In this document: in pieces, positions 1,188-31,535 of the stretch
Layout of the letters: every line of letters begins with the position of its first letter
How positions within the stretch are numbered: position 1 is the stretch's first letter
NCBI GenBank assembly: GCA_007695045.1
Contig: REEP01000076.1
Location: 1-35,748 of the forward strand
Length of the DNA stretch: 35,748 nucleotides
Source: Rhodospirillales bacterium
GTDB lineage: Bacteria; Pseudomonadota; Alphaproteobacteria; Rhodospirillales; Defluviicoccaceae
Reading direction: 5' to 3'
The notes under the pieces: model-generated
Told to the model about the DNA's origin: nothing
The model's input: the letters and a program-made list of their open reading frames with translations, nothing else
Database searches by the model: none
Position numbers and translations under genes: made by a program

Positions 1188-4031
1188 TTATGCCGAGCCC
1201 AGGACCAGGCCCGGGGGCAACGCTTCGCCGAACAGGGCCGGGCGCTCGCTTTGCTCCACCGGGATGAAATCCCGAACCTTGGCCACCCGTTGCGGCCCCA
1301 TGCCTGCCTTCTCCAGCCGGGTCGCGATCCGCCCGCGCAGGCCCGACGGCAGGTCCAGGCTGCGGTTGCCGGTCACCCGGGCCGCGCGGAGGAACAGGGT
1401 CTGAATCTCGGCCAGGGCCGGATCGCTCCAGTCCAACGGCTGGAATGCCTTGAAGGTCCGCTCCACCAGCTCCGGGGACACCACCGCGTCCGGCCCGGCA
1501 TAGAGCGGGGTCCGGTTAAGCAGCAACCCCAGAGCGGCGAGATAAGGCGTGGCATGGCGCCCCTGGCTGATCAGGTCCAGGGCGCGGTCGGTGAAGCGGC
1601 TGATCAGCTCGGCCTTGGCGTCATGGCTGATCCGCTCCAGCGCCCCCAGCATCTGGACCAGTTCGGGCGGCGCATCGGTGCGCGTGCGCACGGCCTCGAT
1701 CTCGGCGCTCAGCAGCCGTTCCTGCCGTGCCTTGTCGAGCCCGCCGGCGACCCGCCGCCACAGGATGTGTTCCTGCAGGCGGATGCGCTTGCCGGGGAAA
1801 CGGAGCCCCTGTTCCCGCACCCGCCACAGGGTGTCGATGCGCGCCTCATCCCCCGGCGCCCCGAAGCCGGGCCGGAGCAGGAAGCCGGCCAGGATCAGCC
1901 AGGTCTCCTCGTGCTCCACTGAGATGGCGCGGGCGGGCATGACCGCCTCCAGCGCCGGCCACAGCCGCCGTACCACCACCCAGTTCCAATCCCCCTTGGG
2001 CCGACCGAGAGTGCTCTCCAGCATCTTGAAGGCGCGGGCGGCCGTCAACTTGTCCCCCTTGCGCCGGGGCCCAGTGAACAGCGCCTGCAGCCGGTCTGCC
2101 GCGGTGTCGAGGGCATCGGGCGCCACATTGGGTTCGGCCGGCGGGGGGGCCGGGGCCACAGCCGCCGTGGGCCCCAGGTCCTCTCGTTCGCTCGCACGAA
2201 GGTTGAAGTCCAGCGGCCAAGATCCTGGAATCGCCGGATCGGTGCTGTCGCACGAAAGCTGCAACAAGCCCAGCTCGTTGGTGCGCGCCGTCAGCTCGAT
2301 CGGGATGACGCGCTCCGTATCCGCGGCAGCGCCATCGGCGACCTTCGCTACCGTCTCCAGCGGCGGCAGCGGCATGAAGTCCCGAGGGTTCCAGTCCACC
2401 ACGTCACCGGCGCGAACCTTGCGTTGGCGGGTGGAGGTATAGGCCTGCCAGCGCACCGGTCGGTTGACCCGAAGCTTGAGGTCGAGTTCAGTGATCGCGA
2501 ACGTCTCATCCGGCTGGGCCCCCTCCGGCAGAACGCACACCAGCGCCGGGGCCGCCGGGCGACCTCCCTCCCCTTCCCTCTGGCGGTGCGCGGCGATGAA
2601 CACGGCCCGCGGCGCATCGGCCTCGATCCGCCGGCCACGGCGGTGCACCAGGCGGCCGAACCGCGCCGCGCCACGGGCCACGGCCAGGTCCGGTTCGGGA
2701 TTGTCCAGCACCAGAACCGGCGCCCCATCCTGCCAGCGACCGATCTGGTCGGCCAAGCGTGTCCGCAGGCTCGCCGGATACAAGGTGCCGCCGTTGAACA
2801 GCACTGCGTCCACACGCGGCCGGTCCCGCAGGAAGTCGGCCAGATGGCGGGTGACGGCGCTGTCGGCGGCGAACGGCAGGCCCCATTCCTTCAGCGCCGC
2901 GTGCGCCTTGCGCGGGCGATCGCCGGCCGGGCAGTCGGGGAAAAAGCCGTCGAACAGGATCTCTTCCAGTTCCTGGCGGGTGAGTTGGGCGGAGAGAGAA
3001 CCCGCCATCAGCCCGGCACCCCGGGATGGCAGCGCCACCGGGAACACCTCGTCGGCTGCACCCTCTTCGGCCAGAGCCCGTTCCTTCAGGTCCCGGGCAC
3101 GGGCGATCAGAAACTCCCACTGTGCCCCCGACAGGGTCTCGCCAAGCCCGGCGAGCTTCCGTTCCAAGCGGTGGGCGATGGCAAGATCGATGTTGTCGCC
3201 ACCGAGCAGGATGTGATCGCTGACCGCGACCCGGCGGATCGCAGGCAGGCCCCCGGCGGCGCCTCGGCGGATCTCGAACAGGCTGAAGTCCGAGGTGCCG
3301 CCGCCGATATCCACCACCAAAACGTGGTGGGCGTCACTCTCTGTCGCGGGCTCTGTCGCGGGCTCTGTCGCGGGCTCTGTCGCGGGCAGCCGCCGCCACA
3401 GGTCTTGCGTAGCGTCGTGGCGCTCCAGCCAGGCGTAGAACGCCGCCTGCGGCTCCTCCAGCAGCCGGACATGGTCGGGAAACCCGGCCTCTTCGGCGGC
3501 GCTGAGGGTGAGCTTCTGGGCGATGGCGTCAAATGAGGCCGGTACGGTTACCGTCACGTCCTGGGCATCGAAGCGGAATTCGGTGCCGGCGGCGGCGAAG
3601 CGGTCGTCCCAAACGCTCTTGAAATAGTTGAGGATCAGGCCGGCGGCGCGAATCGGGGAGATCTTGCGCTCGGCCGGGATGGCGTCCGACCCCCAGGGCA
3701 GGAACGGCGCGGTGCGATCGGCGCCGTGATGGCACAGCCAGGATTTTGCGGAGTGGGCAACCCGGCCGGTGGATTCGCCAGCCCGCCGCCGCGCCAGCCG
3801 CCCCACCACCCAGTCACCGCGTCCGGCCTCCCGCCCCTGGAGCTGATCGGCCACCGCATCCTCCGGGAGATAGAGGAAGGACGGCAGGCTCGACGCCTCG
3901 CAGAGATTGCCGAACGACTCCCACTGCGGAATCGGCAGTACGTCGGACGGGGCATCGCCCTCGATCGGCAGATAGGCCAAGGCGGAATTGGTGGTGCCGA
4001 GATCGATGCCGATGCTGAAACGGGCGTTCAT
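1188..4031 (-). CDS. Large Hsp70-family ATPase with long C-terminal extension (YegD/DUF3731-like)
   Basis: A 947-residue actin-fold Hsp70 homologue, far longer than DnaK (~640). The phosphate-1 motif IDLGTTNSA is at residues 9-17, SAKSWL at 94-99 carries the lysine equivalent to the catalytic Lys of DnaK, and phosphate-2 DIGGGTSDFS is at 241-250. LLGGDN follows as in other Hsp70s, and FNGGTLYP is the expected motif near the adenosine site. The last ~330 residues do not resemble the DnaK lid; they probably correspond to the DUF3731-type extension found on Hsp70-like proteins, which I infer from context and length. A (ATEP)n run precedes the phosphate-2 strand. No clear Shine-Dalgarno precedes the ATG, but the MNARFSIGIDLGTTNS N-terminus leaves little doubt about the start. 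It is the last gene of a three-gene minus-strand set, 40 bp after the second Hsp70. Clients and partners are unknown. Confidence 0.88.
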   Translation of the reverse strand: MNARFSIGIDLGTTNSALAYLPIEGDAPSDVLPIPQWESFGNLCEASSLPSFLYLPEDAVADQLQGREAGRGDWVVGRLARRRAGESTGRVAHSAKSWLCHHGADRTAPFLPWGSDAIPAERKISPIRAAGLILNYFKSVWDDRFAAAGTEFRFDAQDVTVTVPASFDAIAQKLTLSAAEEAGFPDHVRLLEEPQAAFYAWLERHDATQDLWRRLPATEPATEPATEPATESDAHHVLVVDIGGGTSDFSLFEIRRGAAGGLPAIRRVAVSDHILLGGDNIDLAIAHRLERKLAGLGETLSGAQWEFLIARARDLKERALAEEGAADEVFPVALPSRGAGLMAGSLSAQLTRQELEEILFDGFFPDCPAGDRPRKAHAALKEWGLPFAADSAVTRHLADFLRDRPRVDAVLFNGGTLYPASLRTRLADQIGRWQDGAPVLVLDNPEPDLAVARGAARFGRLVHRRGRRIEADAPRAVFIAAHRQREGEGGRPAAPALVCVLPEGAQPDETFAITELDLKLRVNRPVRWQAYTSTRQRKVRAGDVVDWNPRDFMPLPPLETVAKVADGAAADTERVIPIELTARTNELGLLQLSCDSTDPAIPGSWPLDFNLRASEREDLGPTAAVAPAPPPAEPNVAPDALDTAADRLQALFTGPRRKGDKLTAARAFKMLESTLGRPKGDWNWVVVRRLWPALEAVMPARAISVEHEETWLILAGFLLRPGFGAPGDEARIDTLWRVREQGLRFPGKRIRLQEHILWRRVAGGLDKARQERLLSAEIEAVRTRTDAPPELVQMLGALERISHDAKAELISRFTDRALDLISQGRHATPYLAALGLLLNRTPLYAGPDAVVSPELVERTFKAFQPLDWSDPALAEIQTLFLRAARVTGNRSLDLPSGLRGRIATRLEKAGMGPQRVAKVRDFIPVEQSERPALFGEALPPGLVLGSA
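3339..3386 (-). repeat. 12-bp in-frame tandem repeat, four exact units, coding ATEP
   Basis: The unit ctctgtcgcggg (plus strand) occurs four times without mismatch and encodes an Ala-Thr-Glu-Pro run at about residues 217-232 of the large Hsp70. Unit length is a multiple of three, so copy-number change would keep the frame. The run sits as a linker just before the phosphate-2 strand of the ATPase domain. Confidence 0.95.
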
Positions 4032-4071
4032 GATGCGGGGGCAGGGGCAGGCGCTGGCATTCGCTCGCCGA

Positions 4072-5937
4072 TCACTCGGTGCGGACCTGGAACTCGACCT
4101 TCCAGCGGCGTTCCGACTTGGTGTGTTGCATCCACAGCTCGAGCGTGCCGAGCTCGGTCACCACCGACTGGATACGCACCGGCACCGGCTGCCCGGCCGG
4201 CAATTCCTCCACCGGCGGCAGGGTCACCTCCAGAAGGCTGGTTTCCTCCAGTTCGCGCTCCGCATCGGGCAGGACGTCCCCCGGCGCATCGCCGCTTCGC
4301 ACCTCCGAAGAGAAGAACCGGAACTCCGCCGGCTGGCCGGTGACCAAACCGAGATCCGGCCCCTCGATTGTCAGCTCGGAGCCCTCCTCCATGCCTTGCG
4401 GCACCACGCACAGCGCCTTGACCGGCGGGGTGAAGCCCGGCACCGCCGGCATCGAGGTTTCCAGACCGATGTAATAGGAACGGGCGGCCCCGGCGCGGAT
4501 GCGGATGCCCCTGCCGGTGGCGCGGTTGCGTCCGTAGAACGCCGCGCCCTTGGCCACCGCCAGGTCCGGCTGGAAGCCCTCGAGCTGACGCACCGCAGCG
4601 CCTTCGCGCCACGATCCCAGCACCGCCAGTACACGATCGCGGATCGGCCGGGCCTTGAACACGCCGCCGTTGAACAGAACCGCGGTGGGCATCAGCACGT
4701 CGCCTTGCAGGGCGTCGTCGCCGACCAGGGCCGTGAGCGCCTCGCTCGCCCGGACATTGGCGAGGCTGCGGGTGAGAAACCGGGCAAGATGCTTGCTCAC
4801 CACCGGGTCCGAGGCATACGGCAGGCCGAATTCCTGCAGGCCGACGCTGCGGCCCGGCTTGGGCTGTTCGGTCACCGGGGTCAGCGGAAAGAACCCGTCC
4901 AGGATTACCTGCTCCAGGGTGGCGCGGTCCAGCGCGGTGGCGATGGTGCCGGCAAACAGGCCGGAACCCCGTGACGGCACCGCGATCGGCGCCTCGGCCA
5001 GGGACGGATCGTCGAACAGCACCACTTTGGCGTTGGCCGCGGCATGCACCAGAGCGAGGAATTGCCAAGCGTCGAGGCTCTTGCCCTCGCCCTCCAGCTT
5101 GGCGCGGAGGGTATAGGCGAGTGCCAAATCCATGTTGTCGCCGCCGAGCAGGATATGCTCGCCGACGCTGATCCGCTCCAGATCCAGGTCGCCGTCTTTC
5201 TCGTTGACGGCCACCAAGCTGAAATCGGCGGTGCCGCCGCCGACGTCGCACACCAGCACGATATCACCGGGCCCGACTTGGCTGCGCCAGTCCTTGCCGG
5301 CCTGATCGGTCCAGGCGTAGAAGGCGGCGAGCGGTTCCTCCAACAGCGTGACCTTGCCGAGCCCGGCCGCTTCCGCCGCTTCGGCGGTCAGGTTGCGCGC
5401 GACCTCGTCAAACGAGGCCGGGACGGTCAGCACGATCTGGCCGTCCGCGAGAGTCCATTCCCGGCCTTGCAGGCTTTCGGCGTAGAGAAAGCCCTCGCGC
5501 AGATGTTCGAGGTAGCGGCGGGAACAGTCGAACGGCGACAGCTTGTCGGTGACGCTCTCCGACTTCCAGGGCAGGGTGGCCTGGCGCGGATCGATGTGGG
5601 GATTGGACAGCCACGACTTGGCGGACGTCACCAGCCGGTCCGGCACCATGGCGCCGTGGTCGCGGGCGAAATGGCCAACGACTGCCCTAGTCTTTCCGGG
5701 AGTCTCGCCCGCAGTCCCACCGGCCCCGCTCCACGGCAGGGCCACGGCCTCGGCCGGAAACTCGTCGGGGTGCGGCAAGTAGAGAGCGGACGGCAGGGTG
5801 GGCTTTTCGCCGATGCGGTCGGGACCCAGGATCTGGGTCACGTCCACCACGTCGGTGCGCTCGCCCTCGATGTCCGTAACGGCGATGGCGCTGTTGGTGG
5901 TGCCGAGGTCGATGCCGAGGCTGAAACGCTGGGTCAT
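4072..5937 (-). CDS. Second Hsp70-family ATPase (DnaK-like, short C-terminus)
   Basis: A 621-residue Hsp70 homologue. The chosen ATG gives the classical N-terminus MTQRFSLGIDLGTTNSAIAV; the frame stays open upstream, but that part is arginine-rich and not protein-like. Phosphate-1 (IDLGTTNS) is at 9-16, the SAKSWL lysine motif at 105-110 is shared with the downstream Hsp70, phosphate-2 (DVGGGTADFS) is at 231-240, then LLGGDN and FNGGVFKARP. A beta-rich C-terminal part replaces the normal substrate domain and helical lid; no EEVD-like tail is present. It lies between the DUF2760 gene (61-bp gap) and the large Hsp70 (40-bp gap), all on one strand, so the three are likely co-transcribed. No DnaJ or GrpE gene is in the window. 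ATP binding and probably hydrolysis are expected from the motifs; the biological role is not established. Confidence 0.88.
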   Translation of the reverse strand: MTQRFSLGIDLGTTNSAIAVTDIEGERTDVVDVTQILGPDRIGEKPTLPSALYLPHPDEFPAEAVALPWSGAGGTAGETPGKTRAVVGHFARDHGAMVPDRLVTSAKSWLSNPHIDPRQATLPWKSESVTDKLSPFDCSRRYLEHLREGFLYAESLQGREWTLADGQIVLTVPASFDEVARNLTAEAAEAAGLGKVTLLEEPLAAFYAWTDQAGKDWRSQVGPGDIVLVCDVGGGTADFSLVAVNEKDGDLDLERISVGEHILLGGDNMDLALAYTLRAKLEGEGKSLDAWQFLALVHAAANAKVVLFDDPSLAEAPIAVPSRGSGLFAGTIATALDRATLEQVILDGFFPLTPVTEQPKPGRSVGLQEFGLPYASDPVVSKHLARFLTRSLANVRASEALTALVGDDALQGDVLMPTAVLFNGGVFKARPIRDRVLAVLGSWREGAAVRQLEGFQPDLAVAKGAAFYGRNRATGRGIRIRAGAARSYYIGLETSMPAVPGFTPPVKALCVVPQGMEEGSELTIEGPDLGLVTGQPAEFRFFSSEVRSGDAPGDVLPDAERELEETSLLEVTLPPVEELPAGQPVPVRIQSVVTELGTLELWMQHTKSERRWKVEFQVRTE

Positions 5938-5998
5938 GGCGGCTCGATGCGGTGGTTTGCGGACAGGGCCGAGGCGACGGCGACGGGGCCGACGCGCC

Positions 5999-6625
5999 TC
6001 AGGTGATCTCCACCTCGGCCGGAGCGATGGTGGGCAGGCGGTCGTCGGACGGGCGCAGCACCCGCGGCAACTTGACCGCGTCGGCCTTCCAGCCGCGATG
6101 GACGAGTCGACCGGTGAACGGCGCCGCCCCCTTGATGGTGCCGACCAAGCGATATTCATCGGCCGGATGGTCGGCCTCCACTGTGACGGTTTCTCCCTCT
6201 GCCTCAGGTCGCACCGGGCCGATCGTGAAGTGCTGCTTGAGCACGGACTTGCAGCCTTCGTGCACCACGCGCGCCGCCGCGCCCACCTGCACGTCGGTGT
6301 ACGGGGCGACATCGTCCATCAGGAAGTCCACCAGCCGCCCCTTCTCCTGCATCAGGGCGAGGAAAGCCACCACGTCGGCTTCGTGCGTGGTCGTGGGCGG
6401 CGGTGCGGCGGCGGGCTTCGCAGCTTCGGCTTTGGGCCGTTCCGGGGCCGCCTTGCGACCCCCGCCGGCCAGGATCACCAGCAGCAGCAGCACCGCGGCG
6501 GCGAGGGCGGCCACCGACAGTTCCTGCGCATAAGGGGTGAGTTTGGGCAGCACCTCCTCCGGCAGCAGCGGAAGGGCGACCAGAACCGTCACGACGACGG
6601 CGAGCAGAATGGCAAGGGCTCTCAT
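5999..6625 (-). CDS. DUF2760-family membrane protein
   Basis: A 208-residue protein with two predicted membrane segments (about residues 3-20 and 37-54), a short Ala/Pro/Lys linker (57-80) and a soluble C-terminal domain (82-208) that I recognise as DUF2760. Recognisable parts are FLALMQEKGRLVDFLMDDV, VGAAARVVHEGC and RLVHRGWKADAVKLP. The family has no known function. In other proteobacteria it occurs beside Hsp70-like genes, as here, where it is the first gene of the set. I infer that it may recruit one or both ATPases to the inner membrane, probably with its C-terminal domain in the cytoplasm; a domain placed outside would argue against this. A gap of 164 bp separates it from the upstream lipoprotein gene, so the module may have its own promoter, though I found no good match. 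Confidence 0.85.
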   Translation of the reverse strand: MRALAILLAVVVTVLVALPLLPEEVLPKLTPYAQELSVAALAAAVLLLLVILAGGGRKAAPERPKAEAAKPAAAPPPTTTHEADVVAFLALMQEKGRLVDFLMDDVAPYTDVQVGAAARVVHEGCKSVLKQHFTIGPVRPEAEGETVTVEADHPADEYRLVGTIKGAAPFTGRLVHRGWKADAVKLPRVLRPSDDRLPTIAPAEVEIT

Positions 6626-6789: not shown

Positions 6790-7353
6790 CTACCGCGTTC
6801 GGACGCCGTCTTGAGGGCGGGCGGGGCCGCGCTCGGGGGTGGCGTGGTCTTCGCGTTGCTGGCGCGCCACCCGCTCCAGGGCTCGGTCGATCCATGCCTT
6901 CTGGAACTCAAGGCCGCGGCGTTCGCGTTCCAGCTGGTCCTGCCGGCCGATCGGCCGGTCACGCCGGTGGGATGCCTCCGGCCGCAGCAAGCGGGAACGA
7001 GCTTCCGCCGTGCGCAATTCCCGCTCGATCATCTCGAGCCGGGCATCAATCAACTGACGCTCGGTCCGCAGCCGGGCCCGGGCGTCGTCCAGGGCCTGCG
7101 CCCGGTCGGGAGCCGGATCGCCGCGGCGCGCACGTGGCGACCGCTCAAGGTCGCGATCAATACCGCGAACGACATCCGGCCAATCCGACGGAACCATGGA
7201 TCCGGAGGGGCGCGCCGGAGCCTGCGGGCGCAGATCATGGACGGTCGGCGTCCGGGTGCAGCCGACCACCAGCAGACAGAGCGAAAGCGCGGCACCCACA
7301 GCCGCCATCGGGAAAACGCCGCGTGACTTTTCGATCCGCGGCAGGCCGGTCAC
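6790..7353 (-). CDS. Coiled-coil lipoprotein coupled to the lytic transglycosylase
   Basis: A 187-residue predicted lipoprotein. I chose the GTG at 7353 because it overlaps the upstream stop as GTGA and gives a complete signal: basic start (LPRIEKSRG), hydrophobic core, and lipobox LVVGC with the lipidated Cys at residue 32. The internal ATG at 7308 would leave a signal without basic residues. The mature part starts Pro-rich, then from about residue 65 to 175 it is full of Arg, Glu, Gln and Leu in a coiled-coil-like pattern (LIDARLEMIERELRTAEA, QDQLERERRGLEF). No family is recognised. Tight coupling to a lytic transglycosylase suggests an envelope role, perhaps as anchor or regulator of that enzyme; this is inference. 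The sorting residue after the Cys is Thr, which does not look like an inner-membrane retention signal. Confidence 0.72.
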   Translation of the reverse strand: MTGLPRIEKSRGVFPMAAVGAALSLCLLVVGCTRTPTVHDLRPQAPARPSGSMVPSDWPDVVRGIDRDLERSPRARRGDPAPDRAQALDDARARLRTERQLIDARLEMIERELRTAEARSRLLRPEASHRRDRPIGRQDQLERERRGLEFQKAWIDRALERVARQQREDHATPERGPARPQDGVRTR

Positions 7354-8252
7354 CGGCAGGCCGAGGCCGCGAAGCCGGCGGCCAGACGCCGGTCGGTCTG
7401 CCGATTGGGCAGGGCCGCGAACAGTTGGCAACGCGGGTCGGCGGTCCGGTCGACACTGGATGCGGCCGCGGACCAGACGTCGTAAGGGCTGGAGCCGTCC
7501 GCCCAGGCGTCGCCATCGGCACCGGCGACGAGAGTCGACGAAGGCCGGGGGCTCGGCGACTGCCGGCAACCGTACAGCGCATGCACACGCTTCACGTAAT
7601 CCTGCGTCTCCCGGTACGGGGGCACGCCCTTGTGCCGCTCCACCGCCCTTTCCCCGGCATTGTAGCCGGCCAGCGCCAGGGTCAGGTTGCCGTTGAAGTT
7701 GCCGATGAGCCAGCGCAGGTAGGTCATGCCGCCACGCACGTTCTGATGCGGATCGAACGGGTCGTTGACCCCGAAACGCGCCGCCGTCTCCGGGATCAGT
7801 TGCATCAGGCCCTGGGCATTCTTGGGCGATACCGCCTTCGTCTGGAAGTTGGATTCGACGGCGATCACCGCCAGGACCAAGCGTGGGTCCAGGTCGAACT
7901 TGGGCGCAAGGCCGACCACCAAGTCGCGCACCCATCCGGGGGCAGCCCGTTCCACATCGCGGCTCGGCTTGGTCCGGGCGCAGCCCTGGGTCGACCATTC
8001 CTGCAGCCAGGCATCACCCCGTGGTGCCACGCTGTCCAACCGTGCCCCGCTGCCCCGGCCGAGATGCATGGTGATCCGGCCGTCTTCACTCCGGCTCAGC
8101 ACGCCCCGCTTCCACTGCGGTTCGGCCGCCCGCGTCTGCACGGTGTGGTCGCCCGCCTTGGTCGCCGGCACAGCGCCCGTCATCGTGACAACGCTGGCCA
8201 AGGCTGCCAACATCAGAATTTGCCCCATGGTCGAACGGAGATTTCGTCGCAT
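7350..8252 (-). CDS. Periplasmic lytic transglycosylase (SLT family)
   Basis: A 300-residue murein lytic transglycosylase, which cleaves the MurNAc-GlcNAc bond to form 1,6-anhydro products. A signal peptide occupies about residues 1-30 (MRRNLRSTMGQ then a hydrophobic core). The SLT domain covers about 108-225: AVIAVESNFQ has the catalytic Glu at 133, followed by NAQGLMQLIP (146-155), LRWLIGNFNGN and ALAGYNAGE (193-201). A Pro/Ser-rich tail follows and the protein ends with several Cys. I preferred the ATG at 8252 over the in-frame ATG at 8276 because GAAGG sits 6 bases before it, whereas the upstream ATG lacks a good ribosome binding site. The stop overlaps the GTG of the lipoprotein gene by four bases, so the two are translationally coupled. 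Confidence 0.9.
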   Translation of the reverse strand: MRRNLRSTMGQILMLAALASVVTMTGAVPATKAGDHTVQTRAAEPQWKRGVLSRSEDGRITMHLGRGSGARLDSVAPRGDAWLQEWSTQGCARTKPSRDVERAAPGWVRDLVVGLAPKFDLDPRLVLAVIAVESNFQTKAVSPKNAQGLMQLIPETAARFGVNDPFDPHQNVRGGMTYLRWLIGNFNGNLTLALAGYNAGERAVERHKGVPPYRETQDYVKRVHALYGCRQSPSPRPSSTLVAGADGDAWADGSSPYDVWSAAASSVDRTADPRCQLFAALPNRQTDRRLAAGFAASACR

Positions 8253-8635
8253 CGTCGGCCTTCGATCTACCCCCATTGTCCCGGTCCGGCGTCAGAAAGC
8301 GCCCGGCATCCTCGGCCGATGGTGATCAGATTCTTGACCCGGCGCCCCCCGTAACGCGAGCGGACAGGCGGCCGCTTGTGCCGCCACCCGCGCAATACCA
8401 TGCGGGAGCGGGACGGACTCTTCAACGATTTTCGTTTGCCGGTCCCTCGTTACAGGCCTTTTCGCGTCAAAGGGGCTCGGCGAGCGGGCTATCGGCGGCA
8501 TGTCTTCCGGGACGGTGGGCCGGTTCCCATATGCCGCATACACCGGCCGTGCGACCGGCTTATGAACTCGCGTTCGGATCGGGCGCAAAGGCTTCGAAGG
8601 TCGTGATCGGAACGGATAGCCACAGCGGAGTCGCT
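8253..8635. other. Intergenic region between divergent genes
   Basis: This ~380-bp stretch separates the divergent transglycosylase and DUF482 genes and must hold both promoters. Frames cross it in both directions but look like read-through of the neighbours, without conserved motifs. I see no convincing sigma-70 match, strong hairpin or RNA gene. An SD (GGAG, 5 bases before the ATG at 8636) marks the start of the DUF482 gene. Confidence 0.5.
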
Positions 8636-10979: not shown

Positions 10980-13298
10980 TCAGCGCGCTTCCGCCGGCTG
11001 CTTTGCCTTGCCCCGGCGCCCGGATGGCGGCGGCGTCGTCCCTTCCGGATAGTCGAAAGCCACCGCATCGTCCCGGATGAAGACGCGCACCACACCCCCT
11101 TTGGCAAGCCGGCCGAACAGCAGTTCCTCCGCCAGCGGCCGCTTGATGTGCTCCTGGATGACCCGGGCCAGAGGACGCGCGCCGAAGCGCTGATCGAAGC
11201 CTCGCTCACCCAGCCAGCGGCGGGCATCCTCACTGAGCTCGATGGTAACCTGGCGATCCGCCAGCTGCACTTCGAGCTGTATCACGAACTTCTCCACTAC
11301 CCGTTCGATGACCTCCAACGAGAGGCTCGCGAACGGGATCACCGCGTCGAGGCGGTTGCGGAACTCCGGGGTAAACGTCCGCTCGATCGCTTCGGTGTCG
11401 TCGCCCATGCGGGCCTCCCGCTCGAAACCGATGGCGGGCTTGGCCAGTTCCGACGCCCCGGCATTGGTGGTCATGATCAGGACGACGTTGCGGAAATCCA
11501 CCGACTTGCCATTGTGATCGGTGAGTTTGCCGTGATCCATGACCTGGAGAAGAATGTTGAACAGATCCGGATGGGCCTTCTCGATCTCGTCCAGCAGCAG
11601 CACCGCATGGGGCTGCTTGTCGATGGCATCGGTGAGCAGCCCGCCCTGATCAAAGCCTACGTAGCCAGGGGGCGCGCCGATCAGGCGGGATACGGTGTGC
11701 CGCTCCATGTATTCCGACATGTCGAAGCGCACGAGTTCGATCCCGAGAAGGTGGGCAAGCTGACGTGCCACCTCGGTCTTGCCGACGCCGGTGGGACCCG
11801 AGAACAGGTAGCACCCGATCGGCTTCTCCGCCTCGCGCAAGCCGGCCCGGGCCAGCTTGATGGCGCTGGAGAGGGCCTCGATCGCCCGGTCCTGGCCGAA
11901 AACCACCGTCTTGAGGTCCCGGTCCAGGGTCTGCAGCACCTTGCGGTCATCGGACGAAACGCTCTTCGGCGGGATGCGCGCGATCTTGGCGACGATCTCC
12001 TCCACGTCCTTCACCGTGACCGTGGTGCGCCGGCGGTGCGCCGGCTGGATCATCCGGGCTGCCCCGACCTCATCGATCACGTCGATGGCCTTGTCCGGCA
12101 ACTTGCGATCGTTGATGTAGCGGGACGCAAGATCCACCGCGGCGCGGATCGATTCGGCCGTGTAGCGGACATGGTGATGGGCTTCGAAGTAGGGCTTCAG
12201 GCCGCGCAGGATCTGCACCGTGTCCTCGATCGACGGCTCGTGCACGTCGATCTTCTGGAAGCGGCGGACCAGTGCCCGGTCCTTCTCGAAATGGTTGCGG
12301 TATTCCTTGTAGGTGGTCGAACCGATGCAGTGCAGGCTTCCGGCCGCCAGGGACGGCTTGAGAATGTTGGACGCGTCCATCGATCCGCCGCTGGTCGCAC
12401 CGGCACCAACCACGGTGTGGATCTCGTCGATGAACAGGATGGATCCCGGCGTCTGCTCGATTTCGGAGATGACATTCTTCAGCCGCTCCTCGAAGTCGCC
12501 GCGGTAGCGCGTGCCGGCCAGCAGCGCCCCCATGTCCAGCGCGAAAATGACCGACTCCTGGAGGACCTGCGGCACCTCACCCATGACGATGCGGCGCGCC
12601 AAGCCTTCGGCGATGGCGGTCTTGCCGACGCCGGGATCGCCCACGTAGAGCGGGTTATTCTTGCTGCGCCTGCACAACACCTGGATGGTGCGCTCGATCT
12701 CCGCGTCACGGCCGATCAGCGGGTCGATGCGGCCTTCCGCCGCCTTGCGGTTGAGGTCGACGCAGTAAGCTTCCAGAGCCTCGTGCCCCTTTCGTACCAC
12801 CTTCTCCGACGTTGTTTCCTCCTCGGCGCCATGAACACTGCGGCGACGTCCCTCCCCCGGCACCTTGGCGATACCGTGGGCGATAAAGTTGACGGCGTCC
12901 AGGCGCGACATCTCCTGAACCTGCAAAAAATAGACCGCGTGGGATTCCCGTTCGGAGAACAAAGCCACCAGCACGTTGGCACCGGTCACCTCTTCCCGGC
13001 CGGACGACTGCACGTGGATCACGGAGCGCTGGACCACCCGCTGAAACCCGGCCGTGGGCTTGGGATCGCCGCCGGTGGCGGCAGCCTTCAGGCTGTCCAG
13101 TTCGTTATTGACGAAGTCAGTCAGTTCCTGGCGAAGCTGGTCAAGATCGACGCCGCAAGCCCGCAATACCGGGACCGCTTCGCCATCTTCGGTCAAGGCC
13201 AGCAGCAGATGTTCCAGGGTCGCGTACTCGTGCCGGCGCTCGGTCGCAAGCGCCAGTGCGCGATGCAGGGTCTGTTCAAGGTTTCGCGACAGCATCAT
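10980..13298 (-). CDS. clpA: ATP-dependent Clp protease ATP-binding subunit ClpA
   Basis: A 772-residue AAA+ unfoldase that feeds substrates into ClpP. The N-domain (about 1-145) binds ClpS. AAA-1 has Walker [10 protein letters not shown] at 220-228 and Walker B LFIDEIH at 288-294; AAA-2 has Walker A GPTGVGKT at 501-508, Walker [13 protein letters not shown] and the C-terminal D2-small domain with the FGARPL sensor. The ClpP-docking IGF loop is present (AIGFERE, IGF at 623-625), and the ClpB middle coiled coil is absent. Length and domain order are those of alphaproteobacterial ClpA. The ATG directly abuts the clpS stop (TGA-ATG-ATG), indicating coupled translation; the second ATG is an alternative start. 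clpP is not in this window. Confidence 0.98.
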
Positions 13299-25902: not shown

Positions 25903-26102
25903 GCGCTCGTGCTAAAGTAACGGTGGGCAAGAGGCGTGTTTTCTCAAGATCAAGGCGTCGAAATCACGGCGCCGCCTGAATCGTGCATCGATTTGCGCGC
26001 AGGGACAAGCCGTGTCTTGGCAGAAATGACCGGGTTTTCCCAGCCGATCAGGCTTGCACACGGGGTCCGGTCTTTCGTTTTCGAGCGATGCGGGAGTACG
26101 GT

Positions 26103-27581
26103 ATGAGTGCAATGTCGGCCACGGCCGCCGCCTCCGAGGCGCCGCCAGACTACAATGAAGACGTCATCAAGAAATTCACGCTGGCGACGGTGTTCTGGGG
26201 CGTCGTCGGCTTCCTGGTCGGTGTCTATATCGCCTTTCAGCTGGCCTACCCGCAACTCAATCTGGGGCTGGAATGGACCTCCTTCGGAAGGCTTCGGCCG
26301 GTCCACACCTCAGCCGTGATCTTCGCGTTCGGCGGCAACGCGCTGATCGCCACGTCGCTCTATTGTGTGCAGCGGACCTGTCGCGCCTCGCTCTGGGGGG
26401 GGCCGGCGTTCGCCAACTTCCTGTTCTGGGGCTATCAGGCGTTCATCGTCATGGCCGCTACGGGATATGTCCTCGGAATCACGCAAAGCAAGGAGTACGC
26501 GGAACCCGAGTGGTACGTGGACCTGTGGCTCACGATCGTCTGGGTTTCCTACCTGGTGATCTTCGTCGGCACCCTGATGCGGCGCCGGGAGCCTCACATC
26601 TACGTCGCCAACTGGTTCTTCCTCGCCTTCATCGTCACCATCGCCATGTTGCACCTGGTCAACAACGCCGCGGTGCCGGTCTCGCTGTTCGGCACCAAGA
26701 GCTACGTGGTGTGGTCCGGCGTCCAGGACGCGATGACCCAGTGGTGGTACGGCCATAATGCCGTGGGCTTTTTCCTCACCGCCGGCTTTCTCGGGATCAT
26801 GTACTACTTCATCCCGAAGCAGGCCGAGCGCCCGATCTATTCGTACCGGCTCAGCATCGTCCACTTCTGGACCCTGATCTTCCTCTATATCTGGGCGGGA
26901 CCGCACCACCTGCATTACACCGCGCTGCCCGAATGGACCCAGACACTGGGCATGGTGTTCTCGATCATGCTGTGGATGCCGTCCTGGGGCGGGATGATCA
27001 ACGGCATCATGACCCTGTCGGGTGCCTGGGACAAACTGCGTACCGACCCGGTGTTGCGGTTCATGGTGGCGTCGGTGGCCTTCTACGGCATGGCGACATT
27101 CGAAGGGCCGATGATGTCCATCCGTGCCGTCAACTCGCTGAGCCATTACACCGACTGGACCGTCGGCCACGTGCATTCCGGTGCGCTGGGCTGGGTCGCC
27201 TTCATCAGCTTCGGCGCCATTTACTACCTGGTGCCGCGGTTGTGGGCGCGGCCGCGCCTGTATTCCGTGCGCCTGGTCAACTGGCACTTCTGGATCTCGA
27301 CCCTCGGCATCATCCTCTACATCACCGCGATGTGGATCTCCGGGATCATGCAGGGGCTGATGTGGCGGGCCTACGACTCGCTCGGCTTCCTCCAGTACTC
27401 GTTCATCGAGACGGTGGCGGCAATGCACCCGTACTACGTGATCCGGGCGCTCGGCGGCGTCCTGTTCCTCGCCGGTTCCCTGGTCATGGTCTACAACCTG
27501 TGGCGGACGATCCGGGGCGACCTCCGGACCGAAGCGACGATGCAGACGCCCGTCCGTGTCGCCGCGGCACCGGCCGAGTAG
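26103..27581 (+). CDS. ccoN: cbb3-type cytochrome c oxidase subunit I (CcoN/FixN)
   Basis: The 492-residue catalytic subunit of the high-affinity cbb3 oxidase, with about 12 membrane helices. Haem/copper ligands by position: H68 (RPVHTSA) and H358 for the low-spin haem b, H356 (VGHVHSG) for haem b3, and H218 (WWYGHN), H268 and H269 (GPHHLHY) for CuB. Helix features such as VNNAAVP, MYYFIPK and GMATFEGPM are typical. It reduces O2 to water at low oxygen. The frame extends upstream, but the ATG at 26103 is preceded by GGGAG and gives the common N-terminus ending in [12 protein letters not shown]. It is the first gene of ccoNOQP, 12 bp before ccoO. Confidence 0.98.
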
Positions 27582-27593
27582 CGGGAGGCGGCG

Positions 27594-28319
27594 ATGAAGT
27601 TCGGCCATCACATCTTCGAAAAGAATGTCATCATCCTCACCATCGCGGTTCTGATCACCGTGTCCATCGGTGGCCTGGTGCAGTTGATCCCGCTCTACAC
27701 CATGGAACAGACCATCGAGGAGGTGGACGGCATCCGCCCGTATTCGCCGCTGGAACTGGTCGGGCGCAACATCTACGTACGGGAGGGTTGCTATGCCTGC
27801 CACAGCCAGCAGATCCGCCCGTTCCGGGACGAGATCGAGCGCTACGGCCACTATAGCCTCGCGGCCGAGAGCCTGTATGATCACCCGTTCCAATGGGGGT
27901 CCAAGCGCACCGGGCCGGACCTGGCCCGGGTCGGCGGCAAGTATTCCAACGACTGGCACGTTGCCCACTTCGTGGATCCGCGCAGCATCGTGCCGGAAAC
28001 GATCATGCCGGCCTACCCGTTCCTGGCCACCAACGCGCTTCGCTTTCGTGACATCGCCGATCACCTGCGCACGCTGCGCATCGTCGGGGTGCCCTACACC
28101 GACGAGCAGATCGACAACGCGGTGCACGACCTGCAGGTCCAGGCCACCGGCGCCGGTGATGTGGACGCCGTTCTCGCCCGCTATCCCAAGGCCGTGATCG
28201 GCAGCTTCGACGGCGACCCGTCGCAGGTGACGGAGCTCGATGCCCTGATCGCCTACCTGCAGGTGCTGGGCACCCTGGTGGACTTCACCGTGTACGAACC
28301 GGAGCGGGACTTCCGGTGA
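27594..28319 (+). CDS. ccoO: cbb3-type cytochrome c oxidase subunit II, mono-haem c (CcoO/FixO)
   Basis: A 241-residue membrane-anchored cytochrome c. The N-terminal anchor is at about 10-33 ([18 protein letters not shown]). The haem c attachment motif CYACH is at 66-70, followed by [10 protein letters not shown], and the likely axial Met138 lies in TIMPAYP. It passes electrons from CcoP to CcoN. It is 12 bp after ccoN, with GGGAGG before the ATG; 21 bp separate it from ccoQ. All typical family features are present; length is normal. Confidence 0.97.
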
Positions 28320-28340
28320 CGGTGGAGGGAGGCAGAAGCC

Positions 28341-28499
28341 ATGGACTGGCAGCAGATCCTGGAAGTGGTGCGTTCGTTGTGGGTGGTGTGGCTGATGATC
28401 CTGTTCATCGGCATCGTCTTCTGGGCCTACCGACCCAAGAACAAGAAGCGGTTCGAGGAACATGGCCGGATCCCGTTCAAGGATGATACGGAGAAATAG
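28341..28499 (+). CDS. ccoQ: cbb3-type oxidase small subunit CcoQ (FixQ)
   Basis: A short gene of 52 codons that is easily missed. The protein has one membrane helix (about residues 11-29, RSLWVVWLMILFIGIVFWAY) followed by a basic PKNKKRFEE and an acidic IPFKDDTEK tail, which is the standard CcoQ layout. CcoQ stabilises the interaction of CcoP with the core complex. It lies exactly between ccoO and ccoP: 21 bp after ccoO, 3 bp before ccoP. GGAGG lies upstream (28324-28328), rather distant; translation may be coupled. Confidence 0.93.
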   Translation: MDWQQILEVVRSLWVVWLMILFIGIVFWAYRPKNKKRFEEHGRIPFKDDTEK

Positions 28500-28502
28500 G
28501 GC

Positions 28503-29366
28503 ATGGCAGAACAAAAAGAAGTCGACCGCCTGACCGGCACCGAGACCACCGGTCACGAATGGGACGGCATCAAGGAGCTGAACACACCGCTGCCACGCTG
28601 GTGGCTGTACGTGTTCTATGCCACCATCCTGTTCTCCGTGGTCTGGGTAATCCTGTATCCGGCCTGGCCGATCGGTCTCAGCGACTACACCAAAGGCGTG
28701 ATCGGCTATTCCGCTCGCGCCGACCTGATGCGCGATCTGGAGGCGCAGCGGGCTGAACGCGCCGTGTGGCGGGAACGGTTCGAGGCTCAGGAGGTAGCGG
28801 AGATCGCCCGCGATCCCGACCTGCTGCAGTTCGCCATGGCCGGCGGGCGGGTGTTGTTCGCCGACAACTGCGCCCCCTGCCATGGCTCCGGTGGCGCCGG
28901 CGCGCCCGGCTTCCCCAATCTGGTGGATGACAACTGGATGTGGGGCGGAACCCTGGAAGAGATCCACCACACGGTGGTCTACGGTGTGCGCAATGACCAC
29001 CCGGAAGCGCGCATGTCGGAAATGCCGGCCTACGGCACCCTCGGCATCCTGGAACGGGACGAGATCGCGGCGGTGGCCGATCATGTGCTCCATCTCGCCG
29101 GGCGCGGCGAGGACGACCCCCGCGGCCGGGAGATCTTCGCCGAGCAATGCGCCGCCTGCCACGGCGACGCGGGCAAGGGCTTGGCGGAGCTCGGCGCACC
29201 GGACCTCACCAACAACATCTGGCTGTTTGGCGGCACGCGCCAGGACATCATCGCCCAGATCCGCCAGCCGCGGCACGGCGTCATGCCCTACTGGTTTGAA
29301 CGCCTGGGCGAAGCCGAGTTGAAACAGGTGACGATTTACGTCCACGCGCTGGGTGGCGGGCAATAG
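28503..29366 (+). CDS. ccoP: cbb3-type cytochrome c oxidase subunit III, di-haem c (CcoP/FixP)
   Basis: A 287-residue di-haem cytochrome c with an N-terminal membrane anchor (about 34-54, LYVFYATILFSVVWVILYP) after a short cytoplasmic stretch. Haem motifs: CAPCH at 123-127 and CAACH at 216-220, each with an accompanying MSEMPAYG or GVMPYW segment. It takes electrons from soluble or membrane cytochrome c. The ATG follows the ccoQ stop by 3 bp. A 136-bp gap with GC-rich inverted repeats and no T-run separates it from ccoG; it may be processed or hold a weak internal promoter. Confidence 0.97.
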   Translation: MAEQKEVDRLTGTETTGHEWDGIKELNTPLPRWWLYVFYATILFSVVWVILYPAWPIGLSDYTKGVIGYSARADLMRDLEAQRAERAVWRERFEAQEVAEIARDPDLLQFAMAGGRVLFADNCAPCHGSGGAGAPGFPNLVDDNWMWGGTLEEIHHTVVYGVRNDHPEARMSEMPAYGTLGILERDEIAAVADHVLHLAGRGEDDPRGREIFAEQCAACHGDAGKGLAELGAPDLTNNIWLFGGTRQDIIAQIRQPRHGVMPYWFERLGEAELKQVTIYVHALGGGQ

Positions 29367-29502
29367 ACCGGGCCGTCCGGCGGCCGAGGCGCCGGCATCC
29401 GGCTGCCGTACAGAGGAGCCCTTCGACAGGGGGAAGCAACCCGGGGCCGGGGACTGAACCGGCTTAGGGCAATCCGGGCGAAGGCCGCCCGAAGGACGAC
29501 CG

Positions 29503-31038
29503 ATGACCATGGAGACCCAGCGTTCCGCTTCTCATCCTGCCACGCCACCCTCGGCGGCATCATCCGGCCCGGCGCCCGCCGATCCGGGCACGGCGGCGAC
29601 ACCGGCGCCACCGGCCGCTTCGCCCGAGAAGATCAAGTTCTTCGCCGACCGGGAAAAGATCTATCCGCGCAACATCCATGGTACCTGGCGGCAGATAAAA
29701 TGGGCGGTCCTGGGCGTGCTGCTGGCGCTCTATTACATCGGCCCCTGGATTCGCTGGGATCGGGGTCCCGGCGCGCCGGACCAGGCCTTGCTGATCGACA
29801 TGCCGGGACGGCGGGCTTATTTCTTCACCATCGAGATCTGGCCGCAGGAGGTCTACTACCTCACCGGCCTTCTGATCATCGCCGCCATCGGCCTGTTCCT
29901 GGTCACCGCCTGGTTCGGACGGGTCTGGTGCGGCTTCACGTGCCCGCAGACGGTGTGGACCGACCTGTTCATGTGGGTGGAGCGAAAGATCGAGGGCGAT
30001 CGCAATGCCCGCCTGCGCCTGGACAAGGCGCCCCTGTCATTTGGCAAGGCCGGCCGAAAGATCGGCAAGCACGCGGCCTGGCTGCTGATCGCACTGGCCA
30101 CCGGCGGCGCCTGGATCATGTATTTCAACGACGCGCCGACGGTCGTGCGGGCGTTCTTCACCGGTCAAGCCTCCACGGCGGTGTACGGCTTCACCGCCCT
30201 GTTCACCGCCACCACGTATCTGCTGGCGGGTTGGGCGCGGGAGCAGGTGTGCATCTACATGTGCCCGTGGCCGCGCTTCCAGAGCGCCATGTTCGACGAG
30301 GATTCGCTGATCGTCACCTACGAAGACTGGCGCGGCGAGCCGCGCGGTTCGGCCCGCAAGGGGCAGTCGTTCGAAGGCCGCGGTGACTGCGTCGATTGCG
30401 GCCTGTGCTGGCAGGTGTGCCCCACCGGGGTCGACATCCGCAAAGGGCAGCAGATGGCATGCATCGGCTGCGCGCTGTGCATTGACGCCTGCAACAACGT
30501 CATGGACCGGTTCGGGCGGCCACGCAACCTGATCACCTACGATTCCATCGCCAACCAGAACGCCCGGGCCGAAGGCCGGCCGGTCCGGATGCGCCTGGTG
30601 CGGCCACGCACGCTGATCTACATCGCGGTTCTGGCGATCGCCGCGACGGTGATGGCCTACACCCTGGTGACCCGGGACCGGGTGGACGTGGCGGTGCAGC
30701 CGGACCGGTCGCCGCTGTTCGTGCAGTTGTCCGACGGCTCCATCCGTAACGCCTACACGTTCAAGATCCTGAACATGGAACGGAACAACAAAAGCTACAC
30801 CCTCACCACCGCCGGCATCACCGGGGCGATGCTGACCGTCATCGGCTACCAGGCCGAACCCGCAACCAGCACCGTCCTGCCGGCCCGGCCCGACGACGTG
30901 GCGACCTTCCGGGTGCTGGTGACCGCACCGCCTGAGAGTGTCCCACTCGCGACCCATGATCTCTGGTTCGTGCTGACCGACCAGGCCACCGGCGAGGTGG
31001 TGGAGCACCGGACCGTGTTTGCAAGCTCGGGGAACTGA
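29503..31038 (+). CDS. ccoG: Cytochrome c oxidase accessory protein CcoG (FixG/RdxA)
   Basis: A 511-residue membrane protein needed for cbb3 maturation, proposed to act in Cu(II) reduction. An Ala/Pro-rich N-terminus (residues 12-40) precedes several membrane helices. Cys pairs CGFTC (143-147) and CIYMC (250-254) are conserved. Two ferredoxin-type clusters follow: CVDCGLC...CP (C296, 299, 302, 306) and CIGCALC...C (C320, 323, 326, 330). The C-terminal periplasmic immunoglobulin-like domain covers about 385-511 and is recognisable from its NAYTFKILNMERNNKSY segment. SD GAAGGA lies 6 bases before the ATG. The stop overlaps ccoH (TGATG). Confidence 0.96.
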   Translation: MTMETQRSASHPATPPSAASSGPAPADPGTAATPAPPAASPEKIKFFADREKIYPRNIHGTWRQIKWAVLGVLLALYYIGPWIRWDRGPGAPDQALLIDMPGRRAYFFTIEIWPQEVYYLTGLLIIAAIGLFLVTAWFGRVWCGFTCPQTVWTDLFMWVERKIEGDRNARLRLDKAPLSFGKAGRKIGKHAAWLLIALATGGAWIMYFNDAPTVVRAFFTGQASTAVYGFTALFTATTYLLAGWAREQVCIYMCPWPRFQSAMFDEDSLIVTYEDWRGEPRGSARKGQSFEGRGDCVDCGLCWQVCPTGVDIRKGQQMACIGCALCIDACNNVMDRFGRPRNLITYDSIANQNARAEGRPVRMRLVRPRTLIYIAVLAIAATVMAYTLVTRDRVDVAVQPDRSPLFVQLSDGSIRNAYTFKILNMERNNKSYTLTTAGITGAMLTVIGYQAEPATSTVLPARPDDVATFRVLVTAPPESVPLATHDLWFVLTDQATGEVVEHRTVFASSGN

Positions 31039-31535
31039 TGATCATGCCTGACAAGCAACGCCCACCCGGCTGGTGGTATCCCTGGATTTTCGTGGCCGGC
31101 ATGGCCGTGGTGATCGCCGTCAACGCGGTGATGGCCTATGCCGCGGTGACCACGTTCGCCGGGCTGCAAACCGAAAACCATTACCGCAAGGGCTTGGCCT
31201 ACAACGACGCGCTGGCGGCCCACACATTGCAAACAGAACGCGGCTGGCAGGTCGAACTGGCCTTTGCGCCGAGCCCGACGGGGGAGAATTGGGGCACCGT
31301 GGAGGCCCGTCTGAGCGATGCCGACGGCGCCGCGCTCGCCGATCTCCAGGTGACGGCACAATTCGTGCGTCCCACCCACAGGGGCTACGATCAGGAACTG
31401 GCGCTGGTGCATCAAGGCGACGGCCGATACACCGCGCGCGCCACGGTGCCGCTCAAAGGCCAATGGGATGTGCGCGTCGTCGCGGTGCGGGGCGATGACC
31501 GCCACCAGGACGTGACGCGCCTGTACATCCGGTGA
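31038..31535 (+). CDS. ccoH: cbb3 assembly protein FixH/CcoH
   Basis: A 165-residue protein with a single N-terminal membrane anchor (about 13-37, WYPWIFVAGMAVVIAVNAVM) and a periplasmic domain. FixH marks are ENHYRKGLAYNDALA and the beta-rich C-terminus (GQWDVRVVAV). It stabilises the oxidase during assembly. ATG overlaps the ccoG stop (TGATG) and the stop overlaps the ccoI GTG (GTGA). A second ATG at 31044 is an alternative. Length normal. Confidence 0.93.
   Translation: MIMPDKQRPPGWWYPWIFVAGMAVVIAVNAVMAYAAVTTFAGLQTENHYRKGLAYNDALAAHTLQTERGWQVELAFAPSPTGENWGTVEARLSDADGAALADLQVTAQFVRPTHRGYDQELALVHQGDGRYTARATVPLKGQWDVRVVAVRGDDRHQDVTRLYIR

Follow-up and report, generated by a model that had tools for sequence, protein, structure and literature searches.

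Within a 35,748-nucleotide stretch of a Rhodospirillales bacterium genome (family Defluviicoccaceae; GenBank assembly GCA_007695045.1, contig REEP01000076.1, positions 1 to 35,748; hereafter the window), three genes stand in tandem on the minus strand and are transcribed in the order DUF2760, Hsp70 A, Hsp70 B. The first encodes a protein of the Pfam family DUF2760, and the other two encode divergent relatives of the chaperone Hsp70, here called A and B. The genes and their domains are placed as follows:

5999-6625, minus strand: DUF2760 protein of 208 amino acids (PF10816, E 1.2e-42, 145.1 bits, cut-off 25)
6008-6376, minus strand: DUF2760 domain proper, residues 84-206, a predicted helical hairpin with a small beta part (Pfam and structure model)
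4072-5937, minus strand: Hsp70 A, 621 amino acids, nucleotide-binding domain and beta substrate-binding domain (SBD-beta), without a lid (PF00012, E 1.5e-17; homology to B)
1188-4031, minus strand: Hsp70 B, 947 amino acids, nucleotide-binding domain, SBD-beta and a helical C-terminal domain at the lid position (PF00012, E 1.1e-10; AlphaFold2 model)
2205-2606, minus strand: residues 476-609 of B, at the position of the DnaK SBD-beta (strands in the model; structural alignment with DnaK)
1200-1922, minus strand: DUF3731 domain of B, residues 704-944, all helical (PF12531, E 2.3e-48, 165.6 bits, cut-off 25)

The gaps between the genes are 61 bases (DUF2760 to A) and 40 bases (A to B). The longest open frame of A starts at 6312 and would encode 746 amino acids; we prefer the 621-amino-acid start because with it the alignment to B begins at residue 1. 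The identity between the two Hsp70s is 34% over 670 columns, which cover nearly all of A. The coordinates and Pfam matches agree with a preliminary description of this DNA, made from the sequence alone, in which two divergent Hsp70s of 621 and 947 amino acids lay head to tail behind a DUF2760 protein. Pfam describes DUF3731 as a "DNA-K related protein." The genome has two other PF00012 matches, DnaK itself and an MreB, and no NCBIfam model scores above its cut-off for the DUF2760 protein, A or B.

Our comparison across genomes shows that the three genes very probably form one unit, because their order and strand are conserved, the two DUFs co-occur, and the genes are in most genomes retained even when unlinked. 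In a phylum sample of 299 genomes, DUF2760 was found in 22 and DUF3731 in 21, all 21 of them within the 22 (Fisher p 2e-31, uncorrected for kinship); this co-occurrence is more than chance. In the lone genome with DUF2760 and without DUF3731 (G026), A runs to the contig end, before B. The 22 genomes comprise 20 with long stretches, that of the window, and one further genome (G053). On the 20 stretches, DUF2760 and A are present in all 20 and B in 19, on a single strand and in one order; at one locus (L052), A and B lie about 2.9 kb apart. We also scanned a contig collection with a trimmed A alignment, which gave at least 571 confirmed relatives, and kept the best 80. These best 80 fall into 12 named phyla: Pseudomonadota (28), Verrucomicrobiota (14), Planctomycetota (11), Myxococcota (10), Acidobacteriota (4) and seven further phyla (9), with 4 unassigned. 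Draft genomes are frequent among them, and some may be mistitled; one titled "Comamonas" (L088), for example, groups within Myxococcus in the tree. DUF2760 lies upstream of A at 66 of the 73 loci with upstream sequence (65 by script, plus L136, where the script missed a DUF2760 located inside an over-extended A frame), and B lies downstream of A at 56 of the 69 loci with downstream sequence. Where sequence was available on both sides, the script counted a complete, ordered, one-strand triplet at 50 of 64 loci. DUF2760 is thus not mostly found without Hsp70 neighbours, which bears out the grouping made in the preliminary description.

The exceptions, in which genes are unlinked but kept, also speak for one unit. 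For the 13 loci without a downstream B, a DUF3731 protein is encoded elsewhere in 11 of the 13 genomes (for L142, a divergent one that adjoins DUF2760), and for the 7 loci without an upstream DUF2760, DUF2760 is found elsewhere in 5 of the 7. We inspected 10 of the 14 unlinked DUF3731 places and all 5 unlinked DUF2760 places, two of the B stretches being short (3.2 and 6.4 kb). In the former, B stands without A or DUF2760; in the latter, DUF2760 is the only one of the three genes; and no stretch overlaps its genome's A locus. Planctomycetota account for most unlinked cases, so the genes there are often scattered yet present. Two members of the window's family (G348 and G364) carry DUF2760-A and B on separate contigs, each flanked by other frames, and in G053 DUF2760-A lies on a 5.9-kb contig with 3 kb after A that lacks B, which is on another contig. 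Separately, B is split into two frames in G421 (L173:7946-10861) and lies in two overlapping frames in G053 (L199:6011-8801), due either to sequencing error or to a decaying gene.

Within the window's family, DUF2760 occurs in 8 of 11 genomes and DUF3731 in 7 of 11. The module is thus patchily distributed, with DUF2760 present in only 11 of the 248 genomes of the wider order. In a FastTree tree of 178 rows, A and B form the two sides of one fully supported branch, which we read as one ancient duplication; FastTree is prone to joining long branches, and the tool flagged several. Pairwise identities of A and B correlate with r 0.946 (77 loci), and those of DUF2760 correlate with A at 0.843 and with B at 0.855 (45 loci), as expected for genes inherited together. 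The alignments used comprise the window together with 19 of the 20 phylum-sample loci (L055 left out), with 47 or with 28 of 54 B frames, or with 58 of 67 DUF2760 frames; the frames omitted from the set of 47 and from the set of 58 were near copies, chosen with no computed threshold. Among 72,556 plasmid records, A is found in 11 and DUF2760 in the same 11. On the conjugative Bradyrhizobium plasmid pCC829_3, the triplet lies among transfer genes. On another conjugative Bradyrhizobium plasmid, pCB82_1 (L187), the triplet is followed by groES-groEL. On the Thiodictyon plasmid pTs485 (L188), DUF2760-A lies between annotated anti-phage genes and a TIR-domain protein, without an adjoining B.

As judged from their residues, both ATPase sites are intact. 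In our survey of 178 proteins (101 A and 77 B), the catalytic Lys of SAKSWL, the catalytic Glu of LLEEP and the phosphate-2 motif DxGGGT are invariant in all 101 A and all 77 B, and phosphate-1 is kept except in one row each of A and B, where the alignment is blank. The preliminary description had correctly recognised phosphate-1, phosphate-2 and the catalytic Lys in both proteins. Our AlphaFold2 model of B (mean predicted local distance difference test score, pLDDT, 85.3; predicted template modelling score 0.79) consists of the ATPase domain, a strand-rich part (476-609), a low-confidence link and helices (638-934). Residues 3-611 of B align with residues 2-502 of DnaK (7kru_A; Z 34.9, root-mean-square deviation 4.1 Å over 465 residues), and the fold of B scores Z 37.5 against an integrative DnaK model. 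Since the alignment runs through residue 611, the SBD-beta is kept in B and the lid is replaced. By homology to B over the same stretch, A is predicted to keep the SBD-beta as well. PDB sequence matches, among those listed, were all Hsp70s (60 of 116 for A, 8 for B), and a DUF3731 profile search of the PDB gave a best match of only E 0.21.

The two proteins differ in what follows the last SBD-beta strand. In A the median is 3 residues (101 proteins; three exceed 16, with 27, 40 and 76), whereas in B it is 332 residues (77 proteins), mostly DUF3731. A DnaK-type lid is kept in neither. The earlier statement that both proteins lack the DnaK lid and tail therefore holds for A but fails for the tail of B, and it had overlooked both the DUF3731 domain at the C-terminus of B and the retained SBD-beta. 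The genome's own DnaK has the linker VLLLDV, which the 13 A and 10 B sequences compared all lack; most of these A sequences have a (V/I)RI(R/K)xG-like stretch at its position. R167 of DnaK is a J-protein docking residue. At this position, an Arg is found in 3 of 101 A proteins (Thr in 76) and in 33 of 77 B proteins, and the genome's own DnaK has it, while the position of DnaK Asn170 is Glu in 178 of 178. As the preliminary description had stated, no DnaJ or GrpE is nearby: no such Pfam family occurs in the 23 window frames scanned outside the triplet, 8 of which have no Pfam match at all and are possibly not genes. The mean pairwise identity of A is 0.534 in the SBD-beta vs 0.523 in the ATPase domain; the SBD-beta of A is as conserved as its ATPase domain, and A would therefore probably bind a single, fixed partner or client instead of a range of peptides. 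In B the values are 0.356 vs 0.469, indicating that the SBD-beta of B has drifted.

The DUF2760 protein of the window has two N-terminal membrane helices (residues 2-20 and 26-53 in the model; two hydrophobic segments by hydropathy), a Pro/Ala-rich linker, and then the conserved domain. The model's block pLDDT is 89-97 over residues 81-190, 77 at 191-200 and 87 at 201-208. A Foldseek search of the PDB gave no match at E<=0.001, and a sequence search gave no significant match to solved structures; VIA-align gave a best Z of 4.5, mostly to helical hairpins. Such weak or missing structural matches do not show a new fold. A likeness to the BAG domain (Z 3.3) was set aside as a common helical arrangement. 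By our hydropathy rule, 17 of 59 DUF2760 proteins have two transmembrane segments (that of the window included), 11 have one and 31 have none; start sites of the long frames were chosen by script, so that these counts are blurred and single cases may be off. An amphipathic helix above 95% of shuffles is found in 19 of the 31 proteins without a transmembrane segment, and an FxxRIxxAF-like pattern is likewise found in 19 of the 31. In the window's genome the protein is very probably tethered to the membrane. Basic residues follow its helix 2; this should place its domain on the cytoplasmic side, the expected location of A and B.

The triplet is a real and widespread three-protein system that is undescribed as far as we searched the literature. 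Among 5.39 million open papers, none names DUF2760, DUF3731, PF10816 or PF12531, which accords with the earlier remark that no function of DUF2760 has been described; the literature listed for bacterial Hsp110, YegD/HscC, Hsp70-like operons and Myxococcus DnaK homologues, PMC11019930 included, showed nothing on the triplet. Bacterial Hsp70s are usually described as DnaK, HscA and HscC. A and B work on the Hsp70 principle, but they are not DnaK, HscA or a demonstrated Hsp110. With DnaK they share the actin-fold ATPase, phosphate-1, phosphate-2, the catalytic Lys and Glu, and the SBD-beta position (model of B). In contrast to DnaK, A has no lid and B has DUF3731 instead, VLLLDV is replaced, A mostly lacks the Arg for J-protein docking, and there is a dedicated DUF2760 partner. 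Against the DnaK family model TIGR02350, A scores 66.2 and B 39 bits, far under the cut-off of 822.55. HscA and HscC/YegD of E. coli are likewise specialised Hsp70 paralogues beside DnaK, and HscA models give the best NCBIfam scores, below their cut-offs (A, 75.0 of 620 and 74.5 of 708.55 bits; B, 50.9 and 52.8 bits). To our knowledge, the HscA and HscC/YegD systems have no DUF3731 and no paired second Hsp70. The eukaryotic Hsp70-Hsp110 pair recalls A and B in that it joins distant Hsp70 relatives, one of which has an enlarged helical C-terminus. We know of no bacterial Hsp110, and our literature search on it gave none.

Based on these findings, we propose a possible mechanism, which we put forward tentatively as somewhat short of probable. 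Three mutually dependent parts would make up one membrane-tethered, Hsp70-type ATPase system. The DUF2760 protein would be embedded in or attached to the inner membrane, its conserved domain lying on the cytoplasmic side, as suggested by the charge around its helices, and would recruit or regulate A and B. A would be a lidless Hsp70 that, judging from its conservation, probably holds one fixed partner or client. B would work together with A and drive or reset the ATP cycle of A, by analogy with one Hsp70 relative acting on another. The unit would probably remodel or assemble a particular membrane-associated protein, and the usual docking of a J-protein on A would not be needed. What we observe is the conserved unit, the arrangement of domains, the intact catalytic sites and the membrane helices; from these we infer that the parts touch one another, which of A and B acts on the other, and what the client is. 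The idea of a membrane-recruited ATPase pair in the preliminary description is thus supported in part, by the conserved triplet, the co-occurrence, the intact sites and the membrane segments of 28 of 59 DUF2760 proteins. A more far-reaching version, which we consider rather unlikely, is a second, J-independent inner-membrane Hsp70 machine of about a dozen phyla: A would hold the client, B would reset A, and a DUF2760 anchor would replace the J-protein, the whole moving as one cassette and serving as the bacterial answer to Hsp70-Hsp110. In any case, a well-studied chaperone family gains a conserved set of two Hsp70s that has a dedicated partner, often bound to the membrane, and two uncharacterised Pfam families, DUF2760 and DUF3731, gain a shared context and a testable hypothesis. 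The triplet also makes it possible to ask, in bacteria, how one Hsp70 relative and another act on each other.

Several observations weigh against the tethered-machine proposal. Membrane contact, as measured from the sequences, is not universal: 12 of the 31 DUF2760 proteins without a transmembrane segment lack an amphipathic helix beyond shuffles, and in one of them, L080, no helix even resembles one. As far as the searches reached, one of the two DUFs is missing from six of the 17 exceptional genomes; assembly gaps may explain them, because most of the 17 are titled metagenome-assembled genomes. One member of the window's family, G402, is 99% complete and has neither DUF2760 nor DUF3731. The identity correlations could also be given by shared ancestry alone. 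An Hsp110-like B has no specific structural support, and Hsp110 does not appear to be the nearest fold: DnaK entries come first in the Foldseek ranking and yeast Sse1 (2qxl_A) is at rank 48, behind many DnaK and BiP entries. Finally, clustering of the flanking frames gave no recurrent fourth gene or client beyond genus-level synteny, mainly in the Vibrio group, Photobacterium and Myxococcus; here the 25 largest clusters were judged, from one sequence each and without annotation of each cluster.

Candidates for a fourth gene were considered and rejected. An ABC-ATPase-like cluster (14 loci) and a sensor-kinase-like cluster (8 loci) lie at varying distances and on both strands. At two Isosphaeraceae loci (L092:8425-10865 and L094:7074-9013), a SIS/MurQ-like gene and a BadF-type ATPase take the place of B after A, the pair in L094 being assigned from the sequence start only; two loci are too few for these to count as extra parts.

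Instead of a chaperone, A and B could be a regulatory membrane pair that signals by its ATP state, like other Hsp70/actin-fold proteins, with no unfolded client. The strong constraint on the SBD-beta of A, as for a fixed partner, and the absence of a lid to trap a peptide fit this idea, and regulation enters through two published cases. In Myxococcus xanthus, the Stk locus encodes the Hsp70-like StkA of 540 amino acids, followed downstream by StkB (SCP2-like) and StkC, and StkA regulates exopolysaccharide according to the available portion of the report (PMC4319316). StkA resembles A and B in being an Hsp70-like protein in a small operon, and differs in its partners and its length; from its description there we set it aside as another family. 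In Vibrio cholerae, VC1373-VC1375 form a three-gene unit of which VC1373 and VC1374 are called DnaK-related in the accessible text of two studies (PMC5816637, PMC9201469). Judging from the order and names of the genes and from a GGDEF gene that lies divergently next to related loci (a flank cluster of which one member was Pfam-tested), this is probably the orthologous triplet, with VC1375 as the DUF2760 gene. A search upstream of DUF2760 in 13 Vibrionaceae-group loci with what we take to be the HapR/LuxR consensus gave no match beyond shuffles. The VC1375 promoter is described, in the part of the source at hand, as HapR-activated in vivo and in vitro (PMC10328515), but the HapR site given there has no match beyond shuffles upstream of DUF2760 in the same 13 loci (lowest shuffle fraction 0.22). 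With the ATPase sites and the SBD-beta position kept as in chaperones, we judge a purely regulatory pair to be unlikely.

Excerpts of other work mention genes of this kind: VC1374 lies in a three-gene unit repressed in biofilms (PMC9201469) and appears in a polymyxin B study (PMC5636140), and a riboflavin transcriptome includes VC1373 (PMC5816637). Two further proteins called DnaK-related may be A or B: that of Photobacterium angustum is carbonylated after UVB (PMC3706606), and that of Thiodictyon is differentially expressed (PMC6413534). The available portions of these papers propose no function.

Alternatively, A and B could be extra general chaperones, namely duplicated Hsp70s that use ordinary DnaJ and GrpE, with DUF2760 merely recruiting them to the membrane, where they would protect proteins. 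The Hsp70 layout up to the SBD-beta would suit this, as would the J-protein Arg kept in 33 of 77 B, the groES-groEL genes on the one conjugative Bradyrhizobium plasmid, and, in the window, clpA at a distance of 4.4 kb from the triplet. However, the same Arg is absent from 98 of 101 A, DnaK Asn170 is replaced by Glu throughout, and the lid and the VLLLDV linker are gone. Moreover, A and B are for the most part kept as a set with DUF2760, a partner that would be superfluous for a general chaperone, and groES-groEL is annotated beside the triplet in only 1 of the 3 plasmids with an annotated triplet that were inspected. We therefore regard general chaperones as quite unlikely.

A defence or conflict system on mobile elements is very improbable. 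Its patchy spread, the plasmid carriage and the position of DUF2760-A among annotated anti-phage genes on Thiodictyon pTs485 would agree with such a role, but PADLOC gave only weak partial matches to one candidate model, around phosphate-2, and A was found in none of 50,697 phage records at E<=1e-20. In addition, 7 of the 22 phylum-sample matches are on contigs above 2 Mb, which we take as chromosomes, and no family recurs beside the triplet beyond genus-level synteny (clusters not annotated individually). That three unrelated genes are together by chance in a few lineages is barely credible: 277 of 299 genomes have neither DUF, but the order is conserved over about a dozen phyla and the genes are co-retained after separation.

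Of additional note are the other genes of the window. A lytic transglycosylase (SLT) gene lies about 0.7 kb upstream of DUF2760 on the same strand (7350-8276, minus). A ClpA-type unfoldase with AAA_2, ClpB_D2-small and Clp_N domains lies 4.4 kb upstream of DUF2760, also on the same strand (10980-13298, minus); no recurrent link between clpA and the triplet was seen elsewhere, with no search aimed at such a link. Farther away, positions 25983-34039 of the plus strand hold an apparent cluster for a cbb3-type oxidase and its assembly, assigned by Pfam:

25983-27581, plus strand: COX1
29503-31038, plus strand: FixG
31038-31535, plus strand: FixH
31532-34039, plus strand: P-type metal ATPase

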